NCBI GenBank assembly: GCA_903873185.1
Contig: CAIQNN010000056.1
Coordinates: 1-64,000 of the forward strand
DNA: 64,000 nucleotides
Origin: an uncultured Actinomycetes bacterium
Lineage (GTDB): Bacteria > Actinomycetota > Actinomycetes > Nanopelagicales > Nanopelagicaceae
Direction: 5' to 3'
Shown piece by piece: positions 56,196-63,726 of the stretch; positions within the stretch are counted from its first letter, which is position 1, and each line of letters begins with the position of its first letter. A program made the position numbers and the translations under genes. The notes beneath the pieces are model-generated. The model saw nothing but the letters and a program-made list of their open reading frames with translations, was not told the DNA's origin and ran no database searches.

Positions 56196-57350
56196 GTGCG
56201 AGGAAATCGACTCATCATCGGAGCGGTATCGATAGTTATAGGTTTAGGTTTCTTTTCCAACACCGCATCAGTTGGAGCAGAGAAATCAAGTGGTGAGAGC
56301 GAACAGCGCGCTTGTTCAGTTGTAGCTTCCGAGAGCGCTTTCTGTAACGCCGATATTCTGGTTGATAGTTCTATGAATCCAATGGTCTCCACGGGACCCA
56401 CTGGCTTGGTTCCTGATCGCATCAAAGCTATCTACAACTTTCCCACCTCTTTGACTGCCGGCGCTGGTAAAACTATCGCGATCGTTGATGCTTATGATGA
56501 TCCAACTGCTCTTAAAGATCTCAATGTATTTTCAACTCAATTCGGTCTGCCAACTTGTTCCGAAGAAAACCACTGTTTTTCTAAGGTTAATCAGAATGGC
56601 GATAACGAACATTTGCCTCAAGTGGACCCGTATTGGGCGATTGAAATCAGCTTGGATATTCAGTGGGCGCATGCGATTGCACCAGGAGCAAAAATTTTAC
56701 TCATAGAGGCCAGGTCGACTTCGCTAACTGATTTAGTGGTTGCAGAACGATATGCCACATCACACGCCGACTATGTCTCCAACAGTTGGGGCGCTGCCGA
56801 GTTTGCAGGCGAGCGCCGCTTCGACGAAGTTTTCAACTCAGAAAAAGCTAGCATCTTTGTATCAGCAGGTGATGGATCTGGTCTCCCAAGCTACCCAGCA
56901 ACTTCACCAAATGTGATTTCTGTAGGTGGTACGACACTTCACTTCACCAACCACGTTTTTACCTCCGAAACAGGTTGGATATACAGCGGCGGCGGCTGCT
57001 CGGTTTACGAAAATGCGTTATCAGTTCAACGCAAATTCCCCGGATACAGTTGCGATGGCAAGAAATCCACTCCCGATGTGGCGCTAGTTGGAGATCCGTT
57101 TACCGGAGTTTCGGTTTATGACTCAACACCGATCGGTCCCAATCAATTGGCGGGTTGGTTCCAAATTGGTGGGACCAGCGCATCAACTCCAATTTTTGCT
57201 GGGCGTGCTGCTGCCTATGGTGGCCGCGTTAATGCCAAGACCATTTATGGGGATAACTTAACCTTCAGAGATATCGTCAGCGGCGGACCAGGTAACACCT
57301 GCTCAATCGGCTTTGATCTGTGTTCGGGCCGAGGTGCTTGGATCGGCTAG
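56196..57350 (+). CDS. Secreted S53 (sedolisin-like) serine peptidase without propeptide domain
   Basis: A 384-aa exported peptidase. A hydrophobic signal ends near residue 28 (ASVGA). The sedolisin catalytic set is complete: Glu150 and Asp154 in EISLD, oxyanion Asp226 in SAGDGSG and nucleophile Ser328 in GGTSASTP. A possible calcium site is DIVSG (359-363) near the end. Sedolisins usually carry a propeptide of about 180 residues before this domain; here only about 45 residues lie between the signal and the first strand. GTG start with GGGGGA four bases upstream. Confidence 0.88.
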   Translation: MRGNRLIIGAVSIVIGLGFFSNTASVGAEKSSGESEQRACSVVASESAFCNADILVDSSMNPMVSTGPTGLVPDRIKAIYNFPTSLTAGAGKTIAIVDAYDDPTALKDLNVFSTQFGLPTCSEENHCFSKVNQNGDNEHLPQVDPYWAIEISLDIQWAHAIAPGAKILLIEARSTSLTDLVVAERYATSHADYVSNSWGAAEFAGERRFDEVFNSEKASIFVSAGDGSGLPSYPATSPNVISVGGTTLHFTNHVFTSETGWIYSGGGCSVYENALSVQRKFPGYSCDGKKSTPDVALVGDPFTGVSVYDSTPIGPNQLAGWFQIGGTSASTPIFAGRAAAYGGRVNAKTIYGDNLTFRDIVSGGPGNTCSIGFDLCSGRGAWIG

Positions 57351-57369: not shown

Positions 57370-57930
57370 CTAGCGGGAGTGAAATTTTCGCCAATCAATT
57401 TTGGTAATCAAATAGATGCCAAAAATTGCCGCAATTTGCAGGGCAATTCCTGCTGGCGATTTCAAACTTGATGTGAATATTTCTCCTAAATTGTTGTCGG
57501 CTAATTTCGCGGCGCCCGCGATATATATCGAGTAACTGACAATCCGACCCATAAAGAAGGCGATGGTCAACGCAAACAACGGGGTATTTATCAGTCCGGC
57601 TGCTTCAAATAATTGGGCTGAAGGTAGCGGTGAAAGAGCAAAGAGTCCAATACCCAAAAAGGCAGATTTTTTATTCTTTGAAAGTAGTTCGCCAGCGGCT
57701 TCCAGATTTGCTCTTGCCTTCGATGGAATTTTATTTCGAAATTTTCTAGTTACCAGTGCCAGACAATAGCGACCGGCGCCAGCAGATATTGCGCCCAGTA
57801 AAACAAGTGGAACGGAAGCTAAATTGGAGTTAATCCTAAATAGCACGAGCACCGCCCAAGTAGGCGGCGCGAAGGCCGGCATCAGATTGATGCCAAAAAC
57901 TACTGCTACCACGAGCAGGTAATGGCTCAT
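57370..57930 (-). CDS. Small VTT/DedA-like membrane protein
   Basis: A 186-aa integral membrane protein with about five hydrophobic helices. The order of a Gly-rich segment (LLGAISAGAGRYCLALVTR) and a later FALSPLPSAQLFEAAGL followed by FFMGRI resembles the VTT domain of DedA-type lipid-handling proteins, but the match is distant. Function not assigned. TAACCT six bases before the ATG indicates leaderless expression. Confidence 0.72.
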   Translation of the reverse strand: MSHYLLVVAVVFGINLMPAFAPPTWAVLVLFRINSNLASVPLVLLGAISAGAGRYCLALVTRKFRNKIPSKARANLEAAGELLSKNKKSAFLGIGLFALSPLPSAQLFEAAGLINTPLFALTIAFFMGRIVSYSIYIAGAAKLADNNLGEIFTSSLKSPAGIALQIAAIFGIYLITKIDWRKFHSR

Positions 57931-57946: not shown

Positions 57947-58639
57947 CTATGCAGCGCTGGCAGAGAGGCGGTAGCCCACACTTCGAACGGCTGAGATCAC
58001 ATTAGGGCCACCGGCTGTGCGAATTTTGATGCGCAATCTTGAGGCATGAGTATCAAGCAAGTGATCGCTGCCGAAATATTGTGATCCACCAATGGCTTCA
58101 ATGATTTGCTCGCGAGTAAAGACGCGCTTTGGTTGCTCCATCAATAGACGCAAGAAATCGAATTCAGTGCGAGTCAGCGAAACGCTACCTTCGCCAATCG
58201 CGAGTTCGCGGGATTCTAAATTCAATTCGAGCGGTCCGAAAGTTAGTCGTTCTCGGCTCTCTTTCATGGCTGGATTGATGTGTCGAAGTTGGGCGGTGAC
58301 GCGCAACGCCAAAATTCGAGCCGATACTGGTTTTGTGATGTAATCATCGGCACCTGCTGCCAAGCACATTGCTTCATCGACCTCTTCGCTACGCACCGTC
58401 AGCATGATGATTGGCACATTAGAGACCTTACGAATCTCGCGACAGACCTCAAAGCCATCGGGCTGACCCATAGTTAAGTCAAGAATTACAACCGCAGGTT
58501 TGATATCTTCGAAGACTTCGAGAGCAGATTTGCCATCGAAAGCTTCGGCTACTTGGAAGCCTTCCTGTTCCAGACTTGCTCGAACAAATTGGCGGATATC
58601 TTCGTTGTCATCGACAATTAGGATCATGGCACTTTGCAT
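57947..58639 (-). CDS. OmpR-family response regulator
   Basis: A 230-aa regulator with a receiver domain (acidic DDNED at 10-14, phosphoacceptor Asp54 in ILDLTMG, conserved Thr and Lys in LTVRS and ITKPVS) and a winged-helix DNA-binding domain (about 130-225, LTRTEFDFLRLLME and SVGYRLS). The ATG follows the kinase stop directly, with GGAGAGAGG upstream. Likely the output of the kinase encoded just upstream; targets unknown. Confidence 0.95.
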   Translation of the reverse strand: MQSAMILIVDDNEDIRQFVRASLEQEGFQVAEAFDGKSALEVFEDIKPAVVILDLTMGQPDGFEVCREIRKVSNVPIIMLTVRSEEVDEAMCLAAGADDYITKPVSARILALRVTAQLRHINPAMKESRERLTFGPLELNLESRELAIGEGSVSLTRTEFDFLRLLMEQPKRVFTREQIIEAIGGSQYFGSDHLLDTHASRLRIKIRTAGGPNVISAVRSVGYRLSASAA

Positions 58640-60973
58640 TTAATTGGTCCTCTCTCCGTGAATATGGACTAAACACACTTTCAACTGCGTCATTACTTCA
58701 TCTTTCTTGCTTTTTATCTCTTCCACCTCGGCTTCGGGGTACTTCCTTAGCCAATGTGAAAAATCTCGGAGCGATTCGCCCTCTTTTTCGAAGGAATACA
58801 TTCCTATTGCGCCAGCCATTTCGTGGGCTATGTTGTAAAGGGTTTCATTGGTAGCGCCATCAATAGCTGCAATAGCTCGAGTCAAAACGCCTTCACGGCG
58901 CTGAGCGACGAGGGCATCAACCCGCCCCATCATTGTTGGAATTTCAACCATAATCGTCGTTCCCTTTCCTAACGTGGATTCAATGTTGAGCTTGCCGCCG
59001 TGAAGTCCGACTATTCGATCGACAATGGCCAGGCCAAGTCCGGTTCCAGGTATTTGAGCAGCCACAGCATTTCGCCCGCGGAAAAAGCGTGTGAATAGGC
59101 TCGCCAGATCTTCTGCCGGAATACCGATTCCGTGGTCGGAAACTTTGACACGCACCATTTCGACCTGATGAGAATTGATCGTTCGATCTAGTTCAACGCT
59201 GATTTCAGAATCGGAGTGACTGAATTTAATGGCATTAGAAATTAAATTTATAAAGACTTGGGAAAGTTGTCCGGCATCTCCGACCACCAGGTATTTGCCC
59301 TCGTCCGGCACTGATCGGTAACTAATACTTATTTTCTTTGTCTGGGCAGTTGGCTCAAGAACAAAGATGCTGTTCTCTAGGATTTTATTGAGATCGATCT
59401 CTTGTGAAATCTTAACTTCCTCGCGAGCGTCCAACCTGGAGAGTGAGAGCATGCTTTCAACCAAATCCAAAAGCGCAAGCGCATTGCGATCCAATGTTTC
59501 AAGGAATTTGGCTGCCTGATCATTTACCGCGTCGCGAGGTAGATCTCGAAGTAAATCGATATAGCCAATAATTGATGTGAGCGGCGTTCGCAGTTCGTGA
59601 TTAACAGTGGAGATGAAGTCATTCTTCGCGGTATTTAGCGCTTCTAGTTCGGCAACAACTCTCTGGGTTGCAAGTAACTCGCTCTCAATGATGCTGTAAG
59701 CCAGGTGAGCGCTAAGGAATTGGAGCGTCTGCCTGGAATACTCATCAAATTCGATTGAGGGATCAGAGGATGCGGCCATCACGTAGCCGAAGGCATTCGA
59801 CCCCTCGCCGATTGGAAGCAGCAGAAGTTCATTGAAGTTGTTTTCCGCCATAATTGCAGGAAATTGGTTAGCAATGCGTTGCTGATTTGTATCCATTCCC
59901 GCGATTAAATCGCTGGAGTGTAGGTAAAGCAGCGAGGATTGTTGCCAAAGCGTTCCAATAGTTTCCCGTAATAAATCTGCTGAAATGGAGAGGCCTTCTA
60001 GTTCTTGGCGACGATTCGGGTTTAGCCAAGTAGCTTCGAGCATTGAAGTTCGATCATTAGGAAAGGTAGCGACCGTCACGAAATCCAACTTGAACACTTC
60101 GCCAATTCGCAAGCAAAAGTTCTCCGCCATCTCTTGGTGTGAAGCGAGCTCTCGAATCGAGATGGAAATCGAACGCGCCGCGTAACGCATATTTTCTCGA
60201 CTATCTAGCTCGGCTTTATCGGCAATCCGTTTTTGCTCCAGCGTGAGAGTCAACTCCTCGAGGAGTACCTGCGCATGCTCCAACGTAACGGTGTCGTGAA
60301 TAATTTGAATTCTAGATTTTCGATATTGCCGTAGGAGATCGATTCCAACCCAACCGATCAAGATCCCCGCTAACAAAATTAGGCCATAAAGTAGAAAGAG
60401 ATTTCGTTGTGAAGATGAAGCTCGATTTTTGGCATCTTGATTTAGTTGCAGATCGATGGCTTGTTGATATTGCACAACAACATCTCTAGAACTGGCAATA
60501 AAGTTATCTAAATATGGATGGACTTTGGTGAAAAGATCATGTTGATAGTTCTCGGTAAGAACTCCTACGGGAGCGCTGTCAATTAAAAAGTCGAGAGATT
60601 TTAGCGAGCTTAAATAAGCTGGTGTCGCCCGCTGACCGGTGGTGTAACCATCAGAGTCAATTACATTTAGGCGTTGGGCTAAAAGCGCTCTGGCGATTTG
60701 AACTTCGCGCCGAGGAATTGTGCCGCCCAGCCATTCGCCAACTCGAGCCGCATAAACTAACGACTCCCGCTGCGTAAAAATTAGGGAAGCGGCCGGAGCT
60801 TCGGCTTTACCCAAGACAGTAGCTTCGCGAAAGGCAGTTTTAGAGGAATCAAAAGTTGAGATCGAAAGTGCGATAAGAACAAGCGCGCACCATGCGGCCA
60901 AGGCAAACTGCCCAATGTTTGGACGAAATCGAATTTCCGTGCGATCGGAGTCGACCTTGGGCGGTTTTGGCAT
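58640..60973 (-). CDS. Membrane sensor histidine kinase with GAF and C-terminal HPt-like domain
   Basis: A 777-aa kinase. Helix 1 (about 22-40), an extracytoplasmic sensor region (41-190), helix 2 (191-213), a coiled coil (225-262), a GAF-like domain (about 270-430), HisKA with phosphoacceptor His459 in NHELRTPL, and HATPase_c with N576/N580, DHGIGIP (613-619) and GTGLGLAIV (643-651). Residues 695-777 form an extra helical unit with His717 in IAHEMAGAIGM, which resembles the HPt pattern. No receiver domain is fused. ATG one codon after the lipoprotein stop. Confidence 0.93.
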   Translation of the reverse strand: MPKPPKVDSDRTEIRFRPNIGQFALAAWCALVLIALSISTFDSSKTAFREATVLGKAEAPAASLIFTQRESLVYAARVGEWLGGTIPRREVQIARALLAQRLNVIDSDGYTTGQRATPAYLSSLKSLDFLIDSAPVGVLTENYQHDLFTKVHPYLDNFIASSRDVVVQYQQAIDLQLNQDAKNRASSSQRNLFLLYGLILLAGILIGWVGIDLLRQYRKSRIQIIHDTVTLEHAQVLLEELTLTLEQKRIADKAELDSRENMRYAARSISISIRELASHQEMAENFCLRIGEVFKLDFVTVATFPNDRTSMLEATWLNPNRRQELEGLSISADLLRETIGTLWQQSSLLYLHSSDLIAGMDTNQQRIANQFPAIMAENNFNELLLLPIGEGSNAFGYVMAASSDPSIEFDEYSRQTLQFLSAHLAYSIIESELLATQRVVAELEALNTAKNDFISTVNHELRTPLTSIIGYIDLLRDLPRDAVNDQAAKFLETLDRNALALLDLVESMLSLSRLDAREEVKISQEIDLNKILENSIFVLEPTAQTKKISISYRSVPDEGKYLVVGDAGQLSQVFINLISNAIKFSHSDSEISVELDRTINSHQVEMVRVKVSDHGIGIPAEDLASLFTRFFRGRNAVAAQIPGTGLGLAIVDRIVGLHGGKLNIESTLGKGTTIMVEIPTMMGRVDALVAQRREGVLTRAIAAIDGATNETLYNIAHEMAGAIGMYSFEKEGESLRDFSHWLRKYPEAEVEEIKSKKDEVMTQLKVCLVHIHGERTN

Positions 60974-60975
60974 TG

Positions 60976-61545
60976 TTACTTAACTGAGATCGAACTGAGC
61001 GACCAATTCCATGGGTCTAAGAATTTTGCCCAGGTGCTATCCGATGGAAAGATTATTCTGAGCGGGCCGCCTTGATCGTAAGGAATATCGGTTCCATTGC
61101 GCTTTAGGGCTAAGTAACCTTTGGCGGCTAAAAATGACTGAGCAGTATTTGTGTAGACATAATCATTTAGCGCCTTAGTCCTGACCTTATCGGTGCTGGA
61201 AATTCCGGCAACTGCAAATAATTTTGAAAGTGGAATCACGGTAAAACTCTGTTGCAGTTTTACGAATGGTTCATAGATTGAAATTTCGGTGGTTCCGAAA
61301 GCAATTAACTGCGCCATGGTGTACTTCTTATCAAAACTTCCTTTTGAAATCTCAAGAATGGGATCAGTTGCCGCCGGTGGATCGATTGGCGCTGCGCCGT
61401 ATGGATTAGATGGCGATGCCGAAGGCGATGCGCTCACTGGTGTTGGGCTCGGTGAACTTTGGGCGGTTTTAGCGGTTGAGCCACAACCGGTTAAAACCAA
61501 ACCGGCGACCAGAAAAAGTATTGCGCCACTAATTATTTTCTTCAC
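60976..61545 (-). CDS. Lipoprotein with molybdopterin-binding-like (SUOX/YedY) fold
   Basis: A 189-aa lipoprotein: signal peptide with lipobox LTGC (Cys21), a Ser/Pro/Ala linker (28-60) and a domain whose strand and loop order (LEISKGSFDKKYTMAQLIA, then VIPLSKLFAVAGI, and DQGGPLRIIFPSD) matches oxidoreductase molybdopterin-binding domains. The conserved cofactor-ligating Cys is missing, so it may bind a ligand rather than act as an enzyme. Encoded inside a signalling operon, it may be an accessory sensor. Confidence 0.82.
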   Translation of the reverse strand: MKKIISGAILFLVAGLVLTGCGSTAKTAQSSPSPTPVSASPSASPSNPYGAAPIDPPAATDPILEISKGSFDKKYTMAQLIAFGTTEISIYEPFVKLQQSFTVIPLSKLFAVAGISSTDKVRTKALNDYVYTNTAQSFLAAKGYLALKRNGTDIPYDQGGPLRIIFPSDSTWAKFLDPWNWSLSSISVK

Positions 61546-61548
61546 GAG

Positions 61549-61932
61549 TTACACCGGATCTTTCGTTCGGAGTTCGAGCACCTGATTAACTTTGGCCAAT
61601 AACTCTGCTGGCCGAAAAGGTTTAATTAAATAATCATTCGCACCAGAGTTGAGCGCTGACTCGATATCGCTATTTTGAGAGCGTGCGGTAATCATCAGAA
61701 TTGGAATGCTAGAAATTTCAACTTCTGGGCTGCTTCGGACTTGGGCGACGACTTCATAACCAGATAGTCCAGGCATCATGACGTCTAGGAGGACCAGATC
61801 TGGGCGCGACTGGGCGATAATCTCGAGCGCCATTTGTCCTTCAGAAGCCTCACGAACCTCAAAGCCATTCAAGGTTAAAATGTGAGAAATCAGGTCGCGA
61901 ATGTCTTTGTTGTCATCAACTACCAAAAGCAT
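61549..61932 (-). CDS. Stand-alone receiver-domain response regulator
   Basis: A 127-aa single-domain regulator with VVDDNKD at 4-10, phosphoacceptor Asp50 in LLDVMMPG, Thr in MITARS and Lys in LIKPFRP. No output domain. ATG 61932 is chosen because AAGGCGAG precedes it; an in-frame ATG at 61983 has no ribosome binding site. It is first in a four-gene run with a lipoprotein, kinase and DNA-binding regulator, so it may pass phosphate between His459 and His717 of the kinase. Confidence 0.93.
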   Translation of the reverse strand: MLLVVDDNKDIRDLISHILTLNGFEVREASEGQMALEIIAQSRPDLVLLDVMMPGLSGYEVVAQVRSSPEVEISSIPILMITARSQNSDIESALNSGANDYLIKPFRPAELLAKVNQVLELRTKDPV

Positions 61933-62085
61933 CAAATTCTCGCCTTTCAACGCTGACCTCGCTCTCAATTCGTGAGGTTTCAAGCCTACTTGTTGAAAAG
62001 TGTGATTTAGCAGACTTTATGGCGATTTTAAAACTGTGTACAAATTGCCCACAAAACTTGAGGTAAACGTGAGCCTTTAAGGGGC

Positions 62086-62097: not shown

Positions 62098-62499
62098 ATG
62101 CTCGCATCAGCCTTGGATAGCTTCCGATTGTTCCTACACGTATTTGGCGCCACTATCTGGGTCGGGGGTCAATTCACCCTCGCCGCTTTGGTGCCAATTC
62201 TTCGCCGTCGCGATCCTGAACTCCCACGAATCGCCGCGCGGGCTTTTAACAAGATCGGCTGGTCGGCGTTTGCGCTCTTGATCCTTACCGGAGCTTGGAA
62301 TATGGCCAAGGTGCCAAAAGATGCCAACAACAATTACCACATGGTCCTTGGCATCAAAATGACCGTCGTTCTTCTTTCTGGGGTAGCCGCCTTTGTCCAC
62401 ACTCGTTCAAAGAATGTTAAGTCGATCGCAATTTGGGGCTCGATCAGCGGCGTAATGGCGTTGGCAGCTACCTATATAGGTGTTTTGCTCGCCGGCTGA
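62098..62499 (+). CDS. Small integral membrane protein (CopD-like)
   Basis: A 133-aa protein with four hydrophobic helices. A His in the first helix (RLFLHVFGATIWVGGQF), a basic loop with RRRDPELPRIAARAFNKIGW and a later His in AAFVHTRS resemble the CopD/DUF2269-type family, in which His residues may bind haem or copper. Function not established. Confidence 0.8.
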   Translation: MLASALDSFRLFLHVFGATIWVGGQFTLAALVPILRRRDPELPRIAARAFNKIGWSAFALLILTGAWNMAKVPKDANNNYHMVLGIKMTVVLLSGVAAFVHTRSKNVKSIAIWGSISGVMALAATYIGVLLAG

Positions 62500-62517
62500 T
62501 TAAGTGGCGTTAAAACT

Positions 62518-63726
62518 TTGAACTGTTTGAAGCATGGGTTTAGTCGACTGCTAAAACTATTTACCGATCGGAAAATTTGGGTGCGCCAAATTTCGGTCGC
62601 AGCTCTGGCAGCGGCAACGGCTTGGCAAGTCGGGGATCTCCTGCTTAAGCACGGTGGCCTGGTCGCTGCAATTGTCGCAAGTCTGAGTATCCGAATCTCG
62701 CTGCATAAATCGGTACGCGAAGGTTTTGGTCAGATCGTGGGAACTGCAATTGGCGCTGGCGTTGCGCTCACGAGCGTCTGGCTTTTTCACTTTGGCTTTC
62801 TTGCAGTCGGCGCCACCGTGCTTTTCTGTTCCGTGGTGGCGCGCGCCCTTCACCTGGGCGAGGTCGCCTCGGTAAACGTTCCAGTCACCGCGTTGATTGT
62901 TATAGGTCCGGGGTTGAGCGAGAGCACCGCCTTTAATCGCCTAATCTCAACCTTAATTGGCGCCAGTGTTGCCATCGTCTTTTCCTATTTCTCTCATTCA
63001 AAAACACCAGCGGGGCGAGCGGTGGATCAAATTTCATCGCTGGGCTTGCGTTCGGCAACCTTGCTCGGAGATATGTCAGAAGGGGTGGCAGCGGGCTACG
63101 ACCAAGACACTGCGGGATCGTGGTTAGCAAGAGCTCGGTTACTCATGGAAGAGATCCCTGCCATTCGGGCCCAAGCGCTAGAGGCCAGAAGTTTCGCCAA
63201 ATGGTTTCCAACCGCAGAAGCAGATGAGGCGGAAGAGTTATATATGCGCGGCGTTGCTGTTGAGCACACTGTTGTCCAAGTCCGAACTATTGCTCGCACC
63301 CTTTTTGATTCTGCAGTTGATGGCGGGATATCGCGCGAAACTAAACGTCAGATCGCGCTCGCGCTCTCGATGGCCAGCTATGCAATTACCGCAAAAGCTG
63401 AGCAACTGAAAGAGGATGATCAAAGTTTTGATGACCAGGGGCTAAGCAATGAAATACGAAGTAGTGCAGCAGCGCTTGCGGAAACTTTAATCCAAGAAGC
63501 TGATTCAACCGATCAAGAACAACTTATAAGAAGTATTTCGTTGATCACTAATATCGAACGAATTGCCGATTCCCTCGATGAAAGTTCACCAGCGCTGATG
63601 GATGTAGATACTCCCGCCGAGCCAGCCGGCCAAAAGGTACTGAAAGTTTCACCGCTGGATCAAACTCGTCGGCTCGGTTCAAGAATAAAGCGTCGCCTTC
63701 CTAAATCACTTCGAAAGTATTTTTAA
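62518..63726 (+). CDS. FUSC-like aromatic acid exporter family protein
   Basis: A 402-aa protein with an N-terminal membrane domain of about five to six helices (25-155, including GGLVAAIVASLSIRISLHKS and the REGFGQIVGTAIGAGVAL segment typical of FUSC/ArAE proteins) and a soluble helical C-terminal half with acidic stretches. Such proteins are suggested to export aromatic acids or handle cell-envelope stress. TTG start without a convincing ribosome binding site; no better start is available upstream. Ends with a basic tail. Confidence 0.82.
   Translation: MNCLKHGFSRLLKLFTDRKIWVRQISVAALAAATAWQVGDLLLKHGGLVAAIVASLSIRISLHKSVREGFGQIVGTAIGAGVALTSVWLFHFGFLAVGATVLFCSVVARALHLGEVASVNVPVTALIVIGPGLSESTAFNRLISTLIGASVAIVFSYFSHSKTPAGRAVDQISSLGLRSATLLGDMSEGVAAGYDQDTAGSWLARARLLMEEIPAIRAQALEARSFAKWFPTAEADEAEELYMRGVAVEHTVVQVRTIARTLFDSAVDGGISRETKRQIALALSMASYAITAKAEQLKEDDQSFDDQGLSNEIRSSAAALAETLIQEADSTDQEQLIRSISLITNIERIADSLDESSPALMDVDTPAEPAGQKVLKVSPLDQTRRLGSRIKRRLPKSLRKYF

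Follow-up and report, generated by a model that had tools for sequence, protein, structure and literature searches.

We analyzed the first 64,000 nucleotides of contig CAIQNN010000056.1 (the whole stretch, hereafter the window) from the assembly of an uncultured Nanopelagicaceae bacterium, in which four genes on the minus strand encode a stand-alone receiver (REC), a lipoprotein, a membrane sensor histidine kinase, and a regulator of the OmpR/PhoB type (Table 1). The four genes form an operon with intergenic gaps of 3, 2, and 0 bp according to the open reading frame (ORF) calls. The host (1.63-Mb draft genome, ~98% complete) belongs to the small-genome Actinomycetota and probably lives in fresh water. 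A preliminary description made from the DNA alone had read this gene set as a possible phosphorelay split over three proteins; the ORFs and their Pfam domains agree with the set, and translation places His459 and His717 of the kinase, Asp50 of the receiver, and Asp54 of the regulator where it had put them. The survey of gene order that it proposed found the same order in both other genomes of the host genus, among whose species the regulator is 88–93% identical, and again in ~30 genomes of the family.

Table 1 Features of the locus with their positions in the window, and related loci carrying a SipW cluster.
Feature	Position	Strand	Details
Stand-alone receiver REC	61549..61932	(-)	ATG start; Asp50 codon 61783-61785; Response_reg 5.7e-32 (Pfam)
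Lipoprotein	60976..61545	(-)	GTG start; lipobox LTGC21; Oxidored_molyb 1.2e-6 (Pfam)
Membrane sensor histidine kinase	58640..60973	(-)	HisKA 1.1e-16 and HATPase_c 6.3e-28 (Pfam); His459 codon 59597-59599
Predicted HPt tail of the kinase, residues 684-777	58643..58924	(-)	His717 codon 58823-58825
OmpR/PhoB-type regulator	57947..58639	(-)	Asp54 codon 58478-58480; Response_reg 2e-28, Trans_reg_C 7.7e-21 (Pfam)
Candidate operator	62058..62075	(-)	upstream of the operon; weak repeat copy GGCTCACGTTTACCTCAA, 11/14 match
Insertion in the kinase, residues ~240-430	~59682-60256		~185 residues
Small membrane protein	57370-57930		just 3′ of the regulator
Secreted subtilase-family peptidase	56196-57347	opposite to the operon	downstream of the operon
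CopD-like membrane protein and FUSC/ArAE-type transporter	62098-63726	divergent from the operon	
Related loci with a SipW cluster	L072-L075, L078, L081, L082, L084, L085, L087, L089, L092, L093, L146-L148, L199, L200		

Mapped on alignments of 3 and of 30 kinases, the kinase consists of a transmembrane segment, an extracytoplasmic sensor (residues ~43–190), a second transmembrane segment, an insertion, HisKA with His459 as its site, HATPase, and a C-terminal tail. A Pfam scan found no receiver domain in this chain, as had been claimed. The insertion is restricted to the host genus, has a GAF-like look, and has no Pfam match. In the alignment of 24 REC orthologs, the acidic pair, the Asp, and the Lys are all invariant; TTG starts further upstream, at 61950 or 61983, are possible and might raise the number of Asp50. 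Scans of public genome contigs gave no match for the kinase query and 3 records for the lipoprotein query.

Several lines of evidence, weak but agreeing, suggest that the tail is a histidine phosphotransfer (HPt) domain. An AlphaFold (AF2) model built from four sequences predicts a four-helix bundle (mean predicted local distance difference test (pLDDT) 91.7, predicted TM-score (pTM) 0.80), with His717, residue 34 of the 94-residue tail, in helix 2 (residues 29–41); given this confident bundle, we rejected the idea that the tail is an unstructured linker. A Foldseek search with the model returned the Shewanella HPt 3myf (probability 0.98, TMq 0.71) as one of the leading natural matches, amid generic helical bundles, and more HPts further down. 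Across 29 tails, 23–48% identical to that of the window, no columns other than His717, Gly721, and Tyr726 are invariant, so the small residue four positions past the His is a Gly in all 29. Five of the 29 tails match Pfam Hpt (PF01627), all below the cut-off, the best with 8.8e-4 and spanning positions 12–79 of 84. The tail profile retrieved chance matches only (RecA, haemagglutinin, and others) among the sequences of solved structures, and a PF01627 search of the host genome found no further HPt. Among the three outcomes that the preliminary description had named beforehand as counting against its relay are a tail that does not form a four-helix bundle and an unconserved His717; we observed neither.

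The receiver and the tail are inherited together. Among the 296 genomes of the order, 36 carry a receiver ortholog and 38 carry the tail. The tail is present in all 36 receiver genomes, and the receiver in 36 of the 38 tail genomes; in the two others (G079 and G220), the tail lies in a fragment at a contig edge (L153) and in an operon that has decayed (L152). A sample of 375 genomes from the phylum yielded no tail outside the family.

They also disappear together. Three related loci (L076, L077, and L090) keep the lipoprotein and the kinase, plus the regulator where the contig extends far enough, and lack a receiver ortholog, both within the operon and in the rest of the genome. The L077 and L090 kinases, both readable to their end, terminate where the ATPase domain ends, without a tail. 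In the tree these loci form a single clade (support 100/99) nested among receiver-plus-tail systems, and they share the FprA...GuaB locus with L082, L084, and L087, which have both receiver and tail. Since the intervening genes are retained in the clade, receiver and tail were removed there in two separate deletions. In another lineage, nested beside L071 (support 97/94), the orphan kinases of L149 (5380–7140) and L150 (5422–7182) have an intact H-box and an Asp in place of the tail His, with neither receiver nor regulator nearby, and this change is independent of the loss in the tail-less clade. A relay predicts that the receiver and an intact tail occur together and are lost jointly; hence, the observed pattern fits the path His459–Asp50–His717–Asp54.

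In genome G160, a stand-alone HPt-like ORF of 137 aa lies directly 5′ of an OmpR-type regulator, without a kinase (L155, 2478–3567), and a solitary receiver lies on a different contig (L198, 298–687). This might be either a decayed operon or a fully separated relay.

A classical two-component system combined with a phosphate sink would likewise lead one to expect that receiver and HPt are lost jointly; in this model, the kinase would phosphorylate the regulator directly and the regulator would be drained through His717 to the receiver. The tail-less, receiver-less relatives retain sensor, kinase, and regulator, which means that direct transfer must work there. However, nearly all systems of the family retain receiver and tail, and both regulators of the tail-less clade carry Val after the acidic pair, where nearly all relay regulators have Asn, which fits a change of partner, though it is one event. 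We regard a sink as unlikely.

The signal is probably carried by the lipoprotein. Its AF2 model (pLDDT 83.7) best matched the PruR structures 7kou, 7kos, 7rkb, and 7kp2 (E ~1e-8 to 1e-6), from Agrobacterium, Klebsiella, and Vibrio, with sulfite oxidases ranking behind (E ~1e-4), and a profile of 28 lipoprotein sequences retrieved the same four PruR sequences (1.6e-11 to 1.9e-10, the best being 7kos with 1.6e-11). PruR proteins are secreted, ~170 aa long, and pterin-binding, and lack the Cys that ligates the molybdenum cofactor (Moco); the Trp that replaces this Cys is mostly, not always, conserved (PMC13259868). The lipoprotein has the same profile, being secreted, ~170 aa long, and of a sulfite oxidase (SUOX) fold nearest to PruR. 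Its single Cys is that of the lipobox; the mature domain has no Cys and hence no Moco ligand, which bears out the earlier view of a molybdopterin-domain fold without the cofactor Cys. Its relatives are likewise Cys-free in the mature domain, save one Cys in the divergent L105. A molybdoenzyme was rejected, as the Moco Cys is lacking and no other SUOX-family gene was found in the host genome. Phe94 (in EPF) occupies the Cys/Trp position and is invariant in the 28 members, an aromatic residue but not Trp, while Asn127 and Tyr129 of the ALNDY motif of the pterin site are retained. In most orthologs the secretion signal is a plain one; the lipobox occurs mainly in the host genus and in a group linked to GGDEF-EAL proteins. 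By fold and profile the lipoprotein is PruR-like, and it may bind pterin; the preliminary guess that it brings a signal from outside is thereby strengthened.

The lipoprotein gene lies directly upstream of the kinase gene, and this arrangement is kept in the family. Six genomes of the family have the same sensor fused to a GGDEF-EAL type protein, with the lipoprotein encoded ahead of it, and other actinobacterial families have a PruR-like gene ahead of related sensor proteins of 523–822 aa; actinobacterial loci with PruR and a sensor-GGDEF-EAL protein are L094–L096, L100, L101, L137, L138, and L140–L143. Pairs of a PruR-like protein and such a sensor protein occur across L094–L101 and, in the other families, across L137–L143; the partner in L139 is just 523 aa long, with a GGDEF-type domain at its end. 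Twelve sensor positions, selected after the alignment had been inspected, are conserved at 0.97–0.98 in lipoprotein-linked proteins vs 0.76 in kinases without lipoprotein. A profile-profile comparison with proteobacterial DcpA/DTB sensors aligned 217 columns (E 2.8e-4, probability 41%), with Glu70 of the sensor meeting the Glu of the WX7E motif; with HMMER, the sensor profile did not match three single DcpA-type proteins. From these comparisons, the sensor appears to be the partner domain of PruR. The proteobacterial PruR-linked kinases of L163 (Thioclava) and L167 (Agrobacterium) carry HisKA, HATPase, REC, and HPt in a single chain, which allows the system in the window to be viewed as the same machine with its receiver encoded apart. 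Beside plasmid-borne proteobacterial PruR systems we found folE2 (L162, 2551–3642) and a gene for 6-carboxytetrahydropterin synthase (L159, 3270–3641).

The relay could be correct and the SUOX fold of the lipoprotein serve another ligand or a structural role instead of pterin sensing. Phe in place of the pterin-associated Trp would fit this, as would L144–L148 and L154, which have receiver, kinase, and tail without an adjacent lipoprotein. On the other hand, PruR proteins are the top fold and profile matches, ahead of the sulfite oxidases, the ALNDY Asn and Tyr are retained while the Moco Cys is absent, and PruR-like genes stand directly 5′ of the same sensor in GGDEF-EAL fusions, which makes a role other than pterin sensing improbable. 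That the receiver is a side output acting on another protein, like CheY or DivK, with a tail of local regulatory function in the kinase, is very unlikely: Rec-only proteins can serve either as relay intermediates or as terminal effectors (PMC9981736), but receiver loss accompanies tail deletion or the His-to-Asp change in two lineages, and invariance in the tail is limited to His, Gly, and Tyr, the pattern of a phosphotransfer site.

We propose that the operon encodes a PruR-type, pterin-responsive split phosphorelay, and we put the probability of this whole reading at about 0.62. The secreted lipoprotein would bind a pterin and dock on the extracytoplasmic sensor, by analogy with the PruR-DcpA system, shifting the activity of the kinase. 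The kinase would then autophosphorylate on His459, and the phosphate would pass to Asp50 of the separate receiver, return to the kinase at His717 of its HPt tail, and finally reach Asp54 of the regulator. This regulator probably recognizes 11-bp tandem repeats, among them copies upstream of its own operon. We infer each phosphotransfer step and its direction, as well as the pterin ligand, the operator, and the targets. Tripartite kinases of the ArcB type also have HisKA and, later in the chain, a C-terminal HPt for a four-step relay; the window system would act as such a kinase (HisKA-REC-HPt) with the receiver made as a separate protein, the window chain differing from theirs in having no receiver between kinase and HPt.

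Several observations weigh against this proposal. For the tail, the Foldseek E-values are >0.1 and not significant, the window's own tail has no match to Pfam Hpt and its best relative stays under the gathering score, and a profile comparison against 9 HPts from actinobacteria reached a probability of just 7%, yet with His aligned to His. The Lys at His+3 that is typical of many HPts is absent, Ala or Gly standing there instead, as is also the case in L052 (AHKLAG), which passes Pfam Hpt. The argument from coupled loss counts two events: the tail-less clade is one, in which the receiver departed with the adjacent SipW cluster and only the tail loss is separate, so that in one of the two events the receiver was lost alongside its neighbors. 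In the remnants L152 and L155, the tail His has been retained and neither a kinase core nor a receiver lies beside it. The proposed order of the relay steps follows by analogy that of tripartite kinases and Spo0, and phosphate could flow in reverse, toward a sink. On the sensing side, the pterin-associated Trp of PruR is replaced by Phe in the lipoprotein, and the Trp of the WX7E motif of DcpA is missing from the sensor.

Upstream of the operon, a direct repeat ACCTCAC-N4-ACCTCAC with an 11-bp period was found in operon orientation with at least 11/14 matches in 25 of 35 upstream regions, compared with 0–7 of 35 at other periods; the motif was picked by eye in the same sequences in which it was later counted, and the loci are related. 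The copy in the window is alone not above chance within the window, and TCACnnnnACCTCAA upstream of the operon is conserved across the three genomes of the genus. A genome-wide search of three genomes found no enrichment over the reversed control, and the repeat thus yields no regulon. In another genome of the host genus (G002), a 12/14 copy lies ~20 bp ahead of a SipW/camelysin gene run that is not linked to the operon (L201, C11:19392-19409). The repeat is a candidate operator of the PhoB/OmpR kind.

In 18 related loci, a SipW-type signal peptidase gene diverges from the operon at a distance of ~0.1–0.3 kb, and these clusters usually encode two more proteins, a camelysin/TasA-like one and a further one that is also secreted. 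The cluster is missing from the window and from the receiver-less clade, and a search of the host genome for PF12389 proteins found none. SipW adjacency and the repeat suggest, without proving it, a control of surface fibers. The fuller picture, in which a pterin-sensing transcriptional phosphorelay regulates SipW/TasA-type surface fibers in small-genome Actinomycetota and some lineages have collapsed to two-component systems by joint loss of receiver and HPt, is tentative and somewhat doubtful.

Among the other neighbors, the small membrane protein has a weak Sm_multidrug_ex match and is present in 3/3 genomes of the genus. The genes for the CopD-like protein and the FUSC/ArAE-type transporter are conserved in the genus, and a FUSC gene also lies within a few kb of the operon in L073, L102, and L104.

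The preliminary description knew of no report of this gene set, which holds in part. In a survey of operon structure, architecture M2′ combines kinase and HPt in one protein with two separate receivers (PMC8199921), and the domain-to-protein layout in the window is identical, with both receivers in one operon; the window relay differs in being tied to a PruR-type receptor and in having been found in just one actinobacterial family. Kinase-HPt proteins are themselves common in a census (PMC4558063). The Spo0 relay (KinA-Spo0F-Spo0B-Spo0A) likewise uses a stand-alone receiver as intermediate and a separate terminal regulator, but its HPt function is a protein of its own, architecture M1 (PMC8199921). 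PruR-kinase pairs have also been published: in Proteobacteria, PruR occurs with DcpA-type sensors whose fusion partner is either GGDEF-EAL or a kinase (DTB; TorS/BaeS-like), with actinobacteria unmentioned (PMC13259868). The window system shares with PruR-DTB a secreted PruR-like gene directly 5′ of a membrane kinase, an apparently related extracytoplasmic sensor, and the lack of the Moco Cys, and some PruR-linked kinases (L163, L167) hold REC and HPt in the kinase. Unlike PruR-DTB, it belongs to Actinomycetota, its receiver is a separate first gene, its HPt is fused without REC, an OmpR-type regulator is part of the operon, and its proteins have Phe rather than Trp at the Cys position and lack the WX7E Trp. 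With PruR-DcpA of Agrobacterium tumefaciens (PMC13259868) it shares the receptor fold and the pairing of receptor and sensor, whereas its output would be a phosphorelay to a DNA-binding regulator instead of the turnover of cyclic di-GMP. In the literature searched, no match was found for the Actinomycetota combination of a PruR-like protein, a separate receiver, an OmpR-type regulator, and natural reversions. If correct, our reading extends PruR-type extracellular pterin sensing from Proteobacteria to small-genome Actinomycetota and ties it to a transcriptional phosphorelay. Sister systems at the same locus, with and without the receiver/HPt pair, are natural variants that bear on the purpose of extra relay steps and on how partner specificity is rewired once these steps vanish.

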